Shown piece after piece: positions 19,954 through 23,931 of a DNA stretch of 44,376 nt. This stretch comes from Streptobacillus canis. GTDB lineage: Bacteria; Fusobacteriota; Fusobacteriia; Fusobacteriales; Leptotrichiaceae. The notes under the pieces were generated by a model. That model ran no database searches. It saw only the letters and a program-made list of their open reading frames with translations, and was not told the DNA's origin. Positions within the stretch are counted from its first letter, which is position 1. Every line of letters starts with the position of its first letter. Where the stretch lies: NCBI RefSeq assembly GCF_009733925.1, contig NZ_WOEI01000011.1, forward strand, positions 1 to 44,376, given 5' to 3'. The position numbers and the translations under genes are program-made.

Positions 19954-20062
19954 CATGACTAAGGACTTTCAAATACTTATCATATAAATGAAAAACTTTT
20001 ATACTCAAAAAAAATATTTGATGTATAATAAAGTTAGATACCAAACAAAAAAGAGAACTATC

Positions 20063-20677
20063 ATGAAAAAACTTTTCTTTTCACTTCTTTTAGTATTAGT
20101 ATTTTTTACTTTTACTAAAGAGGTTAAAGTCGTATTATTAGAATCATCTGATATTCATGGAAGACTATTTTCATATAAATATGCAATAGATGAACAAAAA
20201 TCAAACAATGGATTAACAAGAATTGCTACACTTGTCAAACAACAAAGAGCAGAAAATGAAAATGTAAGAGGATATAACTATGATATGTTCGCTGGAGTAA
20301 ACTACAAAGTAGACATAACTAAACCAGATGGAGAAAAAATAGTTGATGCAACTATTAATGGTAAACCTATAGATCCTAAGACTACATACAAATTAGCAGT
20401 AAATAACTATAAATTTGGAACTATTTCTACTTTAGGTTTAGTAACTGAAGCAGATAAATATTATGATTAAAGCTTAGAAACTGCAGGAGCAATGAGAGAT
20501 TTAATCATTAAATATGTTACTGAAAAACAAAATGGAGTAGTTACTCCTAAATTAGATGGAAACTGGGAAATCATTAACTATGACTTCAACAATCCATTAC
20601 TTGAAAAATTAGCTGAAAAAATTAAAGATGGAAGAACATTAAACGTTAAATCAATAAAAATTGATGAAGTTAAATAA
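20063..20677 (+). pseudogene. Decayed 5'-nucleotidase/cyclic phosphodiesterase gene
   Basis: Remnant of a secreted metallophosphoesterase of the UshA/CpdB type. The 5' part encodes a signal peptide (MKKLFFSLLLVLVFF) and the first metal motif SSDIHGRLFSYKYAIDE. Without a frame change the sequence then jumps to the C-terminal 5'-nucleotidase domain (GYNYDMFAGVNYKVDIT, PKTTYKLAVNNYKFG), so most of the catalytic domain, probably several hundred codons, is missing. The reading frame is also broken by a TAA at 20468-20470 within DKYYD-stop-SLETAGAMRD; the frame resumes immediately and ends at 20677. The family normally exceeds 500 residues. Both defects argue for loss of function. It is followed by its original terminator. 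Confidence 0.88.
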
Positions 20678-20729: not shown

Positions 20730-21095
20730 TTAGTTATCATAAATAGTATTATTGAAACCTTCTAATTTCTTGATTATTTCATAATACTTAGTATTATAGT
20801 CTAATTTTAAATCTCCTATTTCTTTATGTAGTGCCCTTTTATATATTATAGCTTGCTTATGAACCCTAATATATGAAAGTCTTGCTAAATTTAGTTTAGG
20901 AAATTTCTCCGGATCTATCTCTACATCATATTTTGGATTGTAATATTGTTTCTTCGTTATTGTTGAAACAGGTAAAATTATACAATCATTATCATTAGTT
21001 TCTCCTATTACTAAAACTGGTCTCTCTTTTAACCCTTTCCGCTTAGTTCCTATATCAAAATATGGAAATAAGGCTATATACATTTTCCCCACCAT
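20730..21095 (-). CDS. PemK/MazF-like toxin
   Basis: A 121-residue protein with the fold pattern of the MazF/PemK/Kid toxins: an N-terminal beta strand, KERPVLVIGE (the K-x-RP-x-LVI motif), then IILPVSTIT and ARLSYIRVHKQAI. Such toxins cleave mRNA. Its 5' end overlaps the upstream Panacea-domain gene by 41 bases, so the two are co-expressed, antitoxin first. Two starts are possible: 21095 (AGAGGG 6 bases upstream) and 21083 (GGTGGGG close upstream), which gives 117 residues. The family assignment rests on motif memory; the catalytic residues are not obvious to me. Confidence 0.78.
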   Translation of the reverse strand: MVGKMYIALFPYFDIGTKRKGLKERPVLVIGETNDNDCIILPVSTITKKQYYNPKYDVEIDPEKFPKLNLARLSYIRVHKQAIIYKRALHKEIGDLKLDYNTKYYEIIKKLEGFNNTIYDN

Positions 21096-21588
21096 AATCG
21101 TCCCTCTTATCTATAATATGATCTTCAAATTCATCACAATACATATCCCAGTAAGTATCATAAACTCTTTCATTTTCTTCATAAATTAGCATAATACATA
21201 TATTTTTTGTACATCTATCATCTTTGTCTAACCCTTCTCTAGCTTTTCTCCATGCCTTTTCTTTATGGGTTAACTCTATTAACTTACTAGGTGAAAATGA
21301 TGAATATTTTTCTATTACATTATTAATAATATATCTATTAAAAACATTAAGCCTTTTCCTCTTTCTAAATACCTTTCTATTCCTATATGCCATCCTTACC
21401 TTTATAGATACAGGCCCGTATTTCCAAGCCTTCATCTTAGAATAAAAAAGTATATTTCCAGTATAAAGCATGGATTCTTTTTGAGAAAAATATACAAGCT
21501 TTTGTAGCCTTATTTCATCAATATTAAATCCATATTTCTTTAAAAACTTAATAGAGATATATCTTGCAACGTCAATTATATCTTCCAT
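21055..21588 (-). CDS. Panacea-domain (SocA/DUF4065) antitoxin
   Basis: A 177-residue protein with an N-terminal Panacea (DUF4065) domain: IDVARYISIKFLKKYG, then IDEIRLQKLVYFSQKESM, then KAWKYGPVSIKVRMAYR, the typical L-Q-K-L-x-Y and W-x-x-G-P-V pattern. This domain is known as a versatile antitoxin that neutralises unrelated toxins. The C-terminal part is charged and likely contacts the toxin. GGGAGGTTAA lies directly before the ATG. It is the first gene of a two-gene operon with a PemK/MazF-like toxin. Its 5' leader contains a terminator and its promoter is flanked by direct repeats. Confidence 0.85.
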   Translation of the reverse strand: MEDIIDVARYISIKFLKKYGFNIDEIRLQKLVYFSQKESMLYTGNILFYSKMKAWKYGPVSIKVRMAYRNRKVFRKRKRLNVFNRYIINNVIEKYSSFSPSKLIELTHKEKAWRKAREGLDKDDRCTKNICIMLIYEENERVYDTYWDMYCDEFEDHIIDKRDDYGGENVYSLISIF

Positions 21589-21604
21589 TTAACCTCCCTC
21601 CCCT

Positions 21605-21639
21605 AAAAAAAAAAGCAGAATGGATTCCTCCAGTCTGCT
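21605..21639 (-). terminator. Terminator in front of the antitoxin gene
   Basis: On the minus strand AGCAGACTGGA pairs with TCCATTCTGCT (one C/T mismatch) around GGAA, followed by ten Ts. It ends only 17 bases before the antitoxin ATG, so readthrough would control the operon. Confidence 0.9.
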
Positions 21640-21698
21640 GAATTAATGTTCCACCTTTGCTCTCAGGTAGTGGGACACCATACTTTAATTCTTTTCTT
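21605..21698 (-). ncRNA. Candidate attenuator leader or small RNA of the toxin-antitoxin operon
   Basis: A minus-strand transcript starting near 21698 would run about 94 bases to the terminator. It is clearly richer in G and C than its surroundings and contains CCA/TGG and CCT/AGG pairing around GAGAGCAA. It also holds a short reading frame of 12 codons (MVSHYLRAKVEH, ATG at about 21684) with only a poor ribosome-binding site. It matches no RNA family I can name; T-box, SRP RNA and TPP riboswitch features were looked for and not found. It could be a riboswitch-like or peptide-coupled attenuator, or an independent small RNA. Confidence 0.5.
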
Positions 21699-21704
21699 AA
21701 CTAA

Positions 21705-21733
21705 ATAATATCAATTACCCTAATTTATGTCAA
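21705..21733 (-). promoter_or_regulatory. Consensus promoter of the toxin-antitoxin leader
   Basis: TTGACA (21733-21728), exactly 17 bases, then TATTAT (21710-21705) with TGA before it. This is among the strongest promoters in the window. Confidence 0.8.
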
Positions 21734-21764
21734 TCATTTAACTCAACAACCAGCCCTAATTTAT
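21718..21764. repeat. Direct repeat flanking the toxin-antitoxin promoter
   Basis: CCCTAATTTAT occurs at 21718-21728 and again at 21754-21764, 36 bases apart. The first copy sits in the spacer up to the edge of the -35 box and the second lies just upstream of it. Paired sites like this could bind an autorepressor; no binding is shown. Confidence 0.5.
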
Positions 21765-21814
21765 ATTAACATATAAATTAAAAAAAGTAAAGGTTTTTTA
21801 GTATAAAAATTTAA

Positions 21815-22612
21815 TTAATCTATTTTTCTATCATAAGGGAATTCGTCTGGATCAGCGCTAAATCTAACTCCACCATCCATTAAATCAATTTTTCTCAAAT
21901 CTTCTTCATCTAAAGTGAAATTTTGAGAATTAAAATTTTCTATAATTCTTGAAGGTGTTTCAGATTTAGGTATTGCATAAATTCCTCTTTGAATATGCCA
22001 ATTTAATATTACTTGTGAACTAGTAACATCATGTTTTTTTGCAATTTCTACTAATACTTCATCATCTAAATACTTAGCTTTAGCTATAGGCATCCAAGCT
22101 TCTACTTGTATACCTTCTTTCTTTAAATATTCTCTTAATTCAGGTTGTGAAAACTTAGGATGTAGCTCAACTTGATTAAAGAAAGGTTTAATAGAACAAT
22201 TAGCTTTAAGTTTTTCTAAATGATGTATCTTAAAATTACATACTCCTATTTCCTTAACTGCTCCTTCATTTTTTAATCTTTCCATAGCCTTGTATGATTC
22301 GATAAACTTTTCTGGATGTGGCCAGTGTGTTAATAGTATATCTACTTTTCCATCTAGTAGTTTATGACTTTTTTCAAATGATCTTAATGTATCATCATAA
22401 CTCATATCACTTGGCCAAACTTTAGTTGTAATTATTAATTCATCTTTTAATTTACAAGTCTTTAAGAAATCTCCAATAAATTTCTCATTTTTATAGAAAG
22501 TCGCTGTATCTATTAACCTATAACCTGCTTCTACTGCAGTTTGAAGTGCCACTCTCATTTTTTCTTCATCAGTTAATTTATACACTCCAAATCCTAACTT
22601 CCCTATATTCAT
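21815..22612 (-). CDS. Aldo/keto reductase
   Basis: A 265-residue NADPH-dependent oxidoreductase with a TIM-barrel fold. The catalytic tetrad is complete: D35 and Y40 (RLIDTATFYKNE), K64 (ITTKVWP) and H96 (LLTHWP). The cofactor-binding C-terminal motif IPKSETPSRIIENF is present. The family (DkgA/YtbE-like) reduces various aldehydes and ketones; the substrate here is unknown. GGAGAAA precedes the ATG. It is the last gene of the mevalonate-pepC operon, 11 bases after pepC. Only a weak A/T hairpin follows it. Confidence 0.9.
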   Translation of the reverse strand: MNIGKLGFGVYKLTDEEKMRVALQTAVEAGYRLIDTATFYKNEKFIGDFLKTCKLKDELIITTKVWPSDMSYDDTLRSFEKSHKLLDGKVDILLTHWPHPEKFIESYKAMERLKNEGAVKEIGVCNFKIHHLEKLKANCSIKPFFNQVELHPKFSQPELREYLKKEGIQVEAWMPIAKAKYLDDEVLVEIAKKHDVTSSQVILNWHIQRGIYAIPKSETPSRIIENFNSQNFTLDEEDLRKIDLMDGGVRFSADPDEFPYDRKID

Positions 22613-22623
22613 ATTTTCTCCTT

Positions 22624-23931
22624 TTATTTACAAATTGCAAGTGACCCCATAGGATCCCATGGTCTTAATTTTATTGGTTCATCTTTTAATTTATTTTGTA
22701 GTTCTTTAGATAGATATTTTTTATTTACTACTATTTGATAAGTATATTTATCCATCCATTCATCACTCATTACAAAATATCCATCTTTACCATTAGCTTC
22801 ACCCCAGCTATTTTCTACCTTCCATCTAGTTGATTTACCATCAATTATATTTACTCCAGAAAGTACCATAGCATGAGTCATTAAACTTTCACAATATTCT
22901 AGATTAGCTGCTTTACTTTGTTCAAATTTAATTCCTAAACTCTTCTCAAATTCGTATAAATTTAAATCCATAATTCCTAATTGTCTATGAGAATTTTGAC
23001 CTACATCACAACCAAACCATACAGTTTCTCCATCGCTAAGTTGTCTTATAGCTAACTCTTTAAATTCATTCATAGGTAAATTTAAATATCTTACAGGTTT
23101 TCCACCTATAACATTACCTAAAAATTCTACTGTAAACATTTCATAGAAAGGTTTATCTTGTGTAGGTGCATTAATTACACTTACATATTCATTTAAATCC
23201 ATGTTGATATATTTATTATAGAAATCTTGTGGGCTAATTTCTAAATCTCTATGGAATTTCATATCTTTATCATAATATTCAAAGTTAACTGTTCTTGGTG
23301 GAACTCCTAACATAACACATAGGAAGTTATATATTTCTCCCATCATTTCTTCTTTAAGATCATATAATCCTTTTTCATCTAACTCACTATTTCTAATTAT
23401 TTCAGCATTTAATCTTAATTTTTTGTTTAATAGTTTATTTAACATAGCTGAATTTGATGAGTGAAATACTTCTGGCATAGCACTTTTTGGTACCACTCCA
23501 TATTTTTGTATTAGAGATACAACCATATCCCATTGTCCTCCATCTTGTTGTGGTGTAGATAATAGATGGTGCACTATTCTTGAATCTATATCTTCGCTAC
23601 GAGTTTTAATTATAGCGTCTAAGAAAAAGTTTGATTTTTCTAATTTATCCCAAAAGAATGTATATGTTTGAGATAATTCAAAATTTTCTAGATTGTACTC
23701 TTTATTCATTTTATGTCTTAATGTATTTAAAGCTGCAAATATCCAACATCTTCCACTAGATTTTTGGCTAGTAACCTTACCTGTTTCAATATTTTCAGAA
23801 AATACATGTATAGTTTCAGCAAATACATCATTATTCATGACAGCATCTGTGATACCCATTCTAAGAGTAGCATTTTGTAATACTCTATAATTTTTCTCCT
23901 TAAATTTTTTTTCCATTTCTCCAAGATTCAT
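22624..23931 (-). CDS. pepC: PepC/bleomycin hydrolase family aminopeptidase
   Basis: A 435-residue C1B cysteine aminopeptidase, normally a cytoplasmic hexamer that trims peptides from the N-terminus. The catalytic triad is visible: C62 (SSGRCWIFAALN), H353 (LMTHAMVLSG) and N374 (KVENSWGE). The C-terminal residues (DPMGSLAICK) correspond to the tail that sits in the active site of family members and limits activity to aminopeptidase. The length is typical. It sits 15 bases after the HMG-CoA reductase gene with GAAGGAA upstream, so it seems to be in the mevalonate operon although its function is unrelated. Confidence 0.95.
   Translation of the reverse strand: MNLGEMEKKFKEKNYRVLQNATLRMGITDAVMNNDVFAETIHVFSENIETGKVTSQKSSGRCWIFAALNTLRHKMNKEYNLENFELSQTYTFFWDKLEKSNFFLDAIIKTRSEDIDSRIVHHLLSTPQQDGGQWDMVVSLIQKYGVVPKSAMPEVFHSSNSAMLNKLLNKKLRLNAEIIRNSELDEKGLYDLKEEMMGEIYNFLCVMLGVPPRTVNFEYYDKDMKFHRDLEISPQDFYNKYINMDLNEYVSVINAPTQDKPFYEMFTVEFLGNVIGGKPVRYLNLPMNEFKELAIRQLSDGETVWFGCDVGQNSHRQLGIMDLNLYEFEKSLGIKFEQSKAANLEYCESLMTHAMVLSGVNIIDGKSTRWKVENSWGEANGKDGYFVMSDEWMDKYTYQIVVNKKYLSKELQNKLKDEPIKLRPWDPMGSLAICK

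Follow-up and report, generated by a model that had tools for sequence, protein, structure and literature searches.

A single ToxI-type RNA antitoxin unit, probably captured without its toxin, heads a Panacea-PemK operon in Streptobacillus canis

The window, by which we mean the whole stretch of 44,376 nucleotides that was analysed, carries on its minus strand an antitoxin gene and a toxin gene, headed by a promoter, a short predicted RNA and a terminator (Table 1). An earlier reading made from the letters alone (the sequence-only reading) had placed toxin-antitoxin genes here, and the Pfam matches in Table 1 bear this out. With a Panacea-domain antitoxin beside a toxin gene, the pair belongs to the Panacea type II toxin-antitoxin operons. 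The Panacea antitoxin has lost the stop of its orthologues (162-164 amino acids) and extends into the start of PemK, giving a 41-bp overlap (21055-21100, minus strand). Adjoining the operon on the plus strand lies a 5'-nucleotidase-like gene (19988-20677) that looks broken into two short frames, the first of them with PF02872.

A relative of the antitoxin was found in 14 of the 33 genomes of the family, and close orthologues (60-65% identity) in three small ones, where the toxin gene adjoins the antitoxin gene in every case. By eye, the orthologous antitoxins resemble those named Streptobacillus felis, ratti and moniliformis. Regarding the neighbourhood, two of the three loci keep most of the adjacent genes. 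Locus L131 has AKR, PepC, HMGR, HMGS and thiolase in the order of the window. Locus L129 has the 5'-nucleotidase pieces, both of them matched beside the operon, and AKR, HMGR, HMGS and thiolase, but PepC had no match there, and AKR is separated from the antitoxin gene by around 960 bp. For L130 the match is limited to the antitoxin-toxin pair. The names AKR and nucleotidase were tested by Pfam and the other neighbours were named from our reading of their sequences.

Table 1. Features at the head of the Panacea-PemK operon, in coordinates of the window
Feature	Position	Strand	Basis or remark
PemK/MazF-like toxin gene, 121 aa	20730..21095	-	PF02452, 33.2 bits; 80-84% identical to three relatives
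Panacea/SocA antitoxin gene, 177 aa	21055..21588	-	PF13274, 58 bits; ATG 21588-21586
GTTAAATG, right copy, present start codon	21586..21593	-	Sequence comparison
Shine-Dalgarno stretch AGGGGAGGGAGGTTAA, straight behind the U-tract	21589..21604	-	Read in the sequence
Predicted RNA, about 94 nt	21605..21698	-	Predicted start about 21698, end 21605
Intrinsic terminator	21605..21639	-	Folding; hairpin 21639-21614, tract of 10 U 21614-21605
Single ToxI-type unit, GGTGTCCCACTACCT-linker-AAAGGTGGAACATTAA (putative pseudoknot core)	21643..21679	-	Similarity, R1 model
12-codon frame ATGGTGTCC...CATTAA, probably a chance frame over the unit	21643..21681	-	Comparison with 8 other units
Cassette promoter TTGACA-17-TATTAT, TG 5' of the -10	21705..21733	-	11/12 consensus matches; -35 21733-21728, -10 21710-21705
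GTTAAATG, left copy, place of the ancestral start codon	21735..21742	-	149 bp from the right copy
Old operon promoter TTTACT-17-TAATAT	21763..21791	-	Compared with relatives by reading, not scored there by a tool

The consensus promoter described in the sequence-only reading is real and lies on the minus strand. Of the 94 promoter-like sites in 16 kb, a total no higher than expected by chance (shuffle mean 102.1), this one and two others agree with the consensus at 11 of 12 positions. The RNA of around 94 bases that should start from it agrees with the sequence as well, and the stretch 21698-21604 folds with -26.3 kcal/mol (z -2.95), none of 200 shuffles reaching so low. The terminator hairpin has 6+4 pairs, one C.U mismatch and a GGAA loop, and its folding energy is -13.7 kcal/mol (z -3.92, 0 of 200 shuffles). 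A simple terminator scan of 20800-23200 reported no terminator, which we attribute to the mismatch in the stem. Thus the strong terminator claimed earlier stands, with its distance to the antitoxin ATG corrected from 17 to 16 nt. One of the identities that had been offered for the element, a small RNA, also fits: a small RNA that has a predicted promoter and a terminator of its own precedes the operon, so that transcription into the operon has to pass this terminator.

The identity of this RNA comes from its core. When the leader was compared with plasmids by blastn, two records matched, the informative one being Enterococcus faecalis pGTC3 (E 2e-6), which carries the sequence as three tandem units; the match stops immediately upstream of a gene annotated as ToxN/AbiQ (PF13958, 143.5 bits). 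In Oceanivirga miroungae, a member of the Leptotrichia family to which we attribute locus L139 through the name of its ToxN, a promoter-like pair is followed by three units GGTGTCCCGCTACCTATATCCCAAAGGTGGACCATTAAAGAA with a period of 42 nt, then by a terminator and then by toxN. Near-identical tandem units thus precede ToxN/AbiQ genes in the Enterococcus plasmid, in Oceanivirga miroungae and in one clostridial genome. As a side observation, a lysine riboswitch (102.6 bits) lies behind the O. miroungae toxN gene (L139 2078-2243).

Eight such units (three from Enterococcus, three from Oceanivirga and two clostridial; alignment A3), with the window excluded, served to build a sequence model, R1. 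It gave the window unit 35.0 bits (E 6.5e-10 by a rough calibration), the runner-up in the 44 kb scoring 9.4 bits. Leaving out the variable linker, the window unit has the same sequence as Enterococcus unit 2. It differs at one base from Enterococcus units 1 and 3 and at two from those Oceanivirga, clostridial and viral units with which it was compared. There is one unit in the window, with no tandem repeats; the repeat-tail motif ATTAAAG is present 5' of it and altered 3' of it (ATTAATTC). On this similarity we hold it nearly certain that the core of the leader RNA is a ToxI-type unit. The leader is therefore probably a single ToxI-type RNA antitoxin unit that landed without its own toxin, and a riboswitch is unlikely.

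We also tested the helices of an H-type pseudoknot on 11 units, pairing columns 1-3 with 12-14 and columns 4, 5, 7 and 8 with 29, 30, 32 and 33; a C.A position within stem 2 was excluded from the tested structure. Pairing occurs in 93.5% of the 77 cells, a value equalled by 36 of 500 shuffles. Stem 1 is invariant across the 11 units. Regarding stem 2, one pair varies on both sides (C-G in 7 units, U-A in 4); this number of changed cells and this covariation score were each equalled by 1 of 500 shuffles. Another pair fails in 5 of the 11. The last units of Leptotrichia, judged by eye only, have GUUGC...GCAAC, with G-C replacing C-G. Alignment A4 does not include the units of Leptotrichia, whose 3' strand MAFFT put out of register, and the unit of L182 was excluded as too divergent. 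The pseudoknot fold is plausible, short of proven.

The 12-codon frame seen in the sequence-only reading exists, while the leader-peptide role suggested for it falls away. Its ATG is found in one of the 8 other units, stopping there after six codons. In three more (ef2, cl2 and ll1) the frame is open to the equivalent stop with AAG in place of ATG, as is to be expected from the letters that the units share, and in the remaining four it runs past. We reject a leader-peptide attenuator for this lack of a conserved ATG, and the frame appears to be a by-product of the unit. The riboswitch option is likewise unsupported, the core being a ToxI-type unit; riboswitch, T-box and TPP-like readings made by eye found no support in Rfam. 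At gathering score, Rfam (release 15) reported tRNA and 5S rRNA only in the whole window and nothing in the leader, where the top weak match was SdsR_RyeB (20.9 bits against a cut-off of 38), best aligned over the terminator. This blank is uninformative because Rfam misses genuine ToxI loci: at E<=1 it detected no ToxI in five ToxN-bearing loci (L139, L001, L147, L157 and L134), nor in a two-unit remnant described below. The earlier remark that no RNA family was recognised holds for Rfam, a library that this branch of ToxI escapes in genuine loci too.

The cassette is absent from the three orthologous loci of Streptobacillus, where the promoter leads directly to the antitoxin start. R1 found no unit in 80 Panacea loci of other genomes, the best 80 of 178; the scan covered 86 sources with the three orthologous loci counted twice, and in L007, L010, L027 and L058 fewer than 200 bases of upstream sequence. 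We reject a leader conserved along with the operon for these absences. The conservation in relatives on which the sequence-only reading had made its leader depend is thus lacking at the operon, none of the three Streptobacillus orthologues having the cassette, and present for the RNA unit itself.

These results also bear on a regulated attenuator of Panacea-PemK, in which the leader would sense a ligand, a protein or translation and switch the terminator. A strong terminator 16 nt upstream of the operon is what such a device would have. Nevertheless, no alternative antiterminator pairing was established, the unit is missing from all three orthologues and, by R1, from all 80 other Panacea loci, the short frame has no conserved ATG, and the same ToxI-type unit precedes ToxN elsewhere. 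We consider an attenuator very improbable.

The site itself suggests how the cassette arrived. Once the 149 bp between the two copies of GTTAAATG (21742, 21593) are dropped, the window can be aligned with each of the three relatives over the whole distance between the old promoter and the start codon. Among 20000 simulated 68-nt stretches, 58 had a match of 8 bases up to the start codon, a figure to be read with the fact that the repeat is 8 bp only and was spotted before being tested. As three relatives are without the cassette and omitting the 149 bp restores their layout, we infer that the toxI cassette was probably gained in the lineage of the window, which is simpler than a loss in three relatives. 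The -10 of the old promoter is TAATAT in the window, where the three relatives all have TATAAT, and a TATAAA follows in the window after three more bases; this comparison depends on the alignment, MAFFT inserting 5 bases there, and the TATAAA stands at a 20-base spacing. The difference suggests that the old promoter may be weaker and that the cassette promoter may have taken over.

We therefore favour, with a probability of about 0.85, a captured one-unit toxI cassette, without toxN, that now heads the Panacea-PemK operon. The cassette (promoter, one unit, terminator and Shine-Dalgarno sequence) would come from a type III ToxIN module minus toxN. A Streptobacillus-like lineage would have acquired it at the start codon of a Panacea-PemK operon that had itself been inherited vertically. 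Its promoter would produce a short RNA folding like a ToxI unit; most transcripts would end at the terminator and a minority would continue into Panacea-PemK. Since the terminator lies downstream of both promoters, and the older of these seems to have been weakened, the operon is probably expressed by read-through of the toxI terminator, like toxN in type III systems. By similarity, the RNA could act as an inhibitor, by binding, of a ToxN-type RNase that arrives on a phage, a plasmid or another incoming element, or that is encoded elsewhere in the genome. Of this picture, the sequence itself shows the identity of the unit, the layout, the lack of a cassette at the orthologous loci and the empty site; transcription, termination, read-through and antitoxin activity are predictions.

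Whether the RNA keeps antitoxin activity is about an even bet. A lone unit may be too little, because neutralisation needed 2.5 repeats of ToxI_Pa and 1.8 of antiQ in work cited by PMC5086642. A single pseudo-ToxI repeat failed in the PhiTE study (PMC3475682); in the assay described there most of the mutation groups placed in ToxI left activity intact, which suggests to us that a single cognate repeat is active in that assay. Furthermore, purified single ToxI repeats are reported to bind E. coli ToxN (PMC8860590).

The RNA could also be an inert relic, a degraded toxIN locus without toxN and with no present antitoxin role, of which the promoter and the terminator alone matter. We put this at somewhat less than even odds, an estimate that competes with the antitoxin-activity step only and not with the captured cassette as such. 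The window has one unit, an altered 3' tail and no ToxN within 44 kb (tblastn of two ToxN proteins, best E 0.57). Moreover, a remnant of this sort exists in G011, a genome of the Leptotrichia family (L178/L168), which has a two-unit toxI remnant, no terminator seen and no ToxN found. The intact promoter, unit core and terminator speak against decay, and this is a weak argument because a recent gain would look alike.

Regarding the distribution of such units, ToxN (PF13958) scored above the cut-off in 20 of 98 Fusobacteriota genomes. The pattern GGTGTYCCRCTACCTN{3,12}AAGG was found in 8 of the 98 (13 sites; reversed-pattern control 0), and in 7 of these 8 the unit precedes ToxN, one site per genome being read; the eighth is G011. 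A related, stricter pattern was present in 1 of 391 Clostridia genomes, upstream of ToxN, and in 0 of 398 Bacilli genomes. Exact patterns thus undercount, because Enterococcus and Lactococcus plasmids do have such units, those of Lactococcus being related units on a plasmid with ToxN. Among the other ToxN-bearing records (53/54 plasmids and 2 phages), L183 and L182 were inspected.

The Enterococcus leader found no further unit-bearing plasmid (3 records, the other two being short pieces); a match of the window leader to a S. aureus plasmid was a 28-base piece. The E. coli collection gave no match. In the phage collection (27 records, 20 listed) the staphylococcal matches were pieces of around 30 bases, many within terminase genes; among the matches listed, six from Bacteroides/Phocaeicola cover the unit end and the terminator with 76-78% identity. 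A whole-leader DNA search of the 33 family genomes returned short pieces only, and this blank carries no weight because the O. miroungae array was missed save for a short piece. PADLOC made no call for the Panacea-PemK pair of the window and called AbiQ for two ToxN.

Solitary units were also found in viral contigs. Three patterns gave no match there. Among 55 distinct viral loci obtained from short patterns, R1 matched at full length in two, L186 (222-259) and L187 (5660-5697), with 48.6 bits each and one ToxI-type unit per contig; their flanks are 97% alike, so they represent one lineage. L188 gave a partial R1 match of 22.3 bits, and the remaining 52 were at or below 17.4 bits or unreported. 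PF13958 had no match in L186 and L187; that search gave a signal nowhere, so the absence of the toxin is unproven. As two viral contigs hold a lone unit with no detected toxin, single-unit toxI occurs beyond the window. In L187, 11 residues behind the unit weakly resemble a ToxN start (E 0.05), possibly a toxN stub.

A bolder extension of the captured-cassette reading would make solitary ToxI units recurrent RNA decoys of phages and chromosomes, comparable to RNA anti-CRISPRs, with one locus here both giving immunity to ToxN and driving or restraining Panacea-PemK, as a type II/III hybrid; we think it unlikely. A different hybrid, in which the ToxI-type RNA would also inhibit PemK, a toxin of the MazF/ToxN fold class, seems to us the least probable of all. 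ToxN is placed structurally in the CcdB/MazF superfamily (PMC10305079), the promoter of the RNA is now the best promoter of the operon, and the ancestral stop of the Panacea antitoxin is lost. Furthermore, both proteins are somewhat further from their orthologues than the orthologues are from each other: Panacea is 61-64% identical to them, compared with 65-83% among them, and for PemK the values are 80-84% and 84-91%. For AKR, encoded next to the operon, there is no such excess (88-91% and 86%). Nevertheless, these figures come from four species and may reflect only the position of the window in the tree, and PemK is still 80-84% identical to relatives without a ToxI unit at the locus.

Thus, a concrete identity can now replace the possible new riboswitch. 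Judging from this locus, an RNA antitoxin of type III may part from its toxin and find a new use at the head of a different toxin-antitoxin operon, to which it supplies promoter and terminator. Should the single unit still be able to block ToxN, we would have here a minimal RNA against addiction or abortive infection; solitary antitoxin units, given the viral copies, would then parallel RNA anti-CRISPRs. As Rfam detected no ToxI in the ToxN loci tried, RNAs of this sort readily escape notice.

The core is of a known kind, and its setting before Panacea-PemK was not found in print within the open-licence PMC literature. That search returned no report of a solitary ToxI or of a ToxI-Panacea pairing, one of its queries being blunt in that 'toxIN' was taken as 'toxin'. 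The window shares with Panacea (PanA/SocA) operons a Panacea antitoxin beside a PemK-type toxin, PemK being among the toxin domains named in PMC8832971; the main text of that paper mentions no RNA antitoxin, terminator, leader or ToxN. With RNA anti-CRISPRs (Racrs) it shares that one repeat of a defence RNA stands alone, away from its system, and often just behind a predicted promoter; Racrs are CRISPR repeats with demonstrated activity, whereas the window unit is known by its sequence (PMC10651486). The pseudo-ToxI of phage PhiTE also consists of ToxI-like repeats outside a toxIN locus, 1.5 of them in the wild-type phage. It is phage-borne and, as described in PMC3475682, has to undergo repeat expansion or recombination before it is effective against ToxIN, whereas the unit of the window has host genes as neighbours and a promoter and a terminator of its own.

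The closest comparison is with the ToxI of ToxIN/AbiQ. A terminator between the RNA antitoxin and the toxin gene is described as a defining feature of type III loci (PMC5086642), and in ToxIN it is reported to yield ToxI in excess (PMC5772629). A promoter-like pair, a terminator and a Shine-Dalgarno sequence are common to the toxI-toxN junctions of L001, L139, L181 and L183, and by eye the position of AGGGGAGGGAGGTTAA in the window matches that of their Shine-Dalgarno sequences. L139 has a TTGACA/TACAAT pair at the equivalent place before its units (by eye, and the only promoter compared in detail), and the weakest terminator of those folded (z -1.59). The window accordingly has the ToxIN layout, with a promoter before the RNA and a Rho-independent terminator after it, as far as can be read from the DNA, and it agrees with ToxI in unit sequence, in the Shine-Dalgarno sequence that follows directly and, plausibly, in a capacity for pseudoknot pairing. 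It differs in having one unit instead of several and, in the place directly downstream where ToxIN loci have the ToxN/AbiQ gene, the Panacea/SocA gene of the Panacea-PemK pair.
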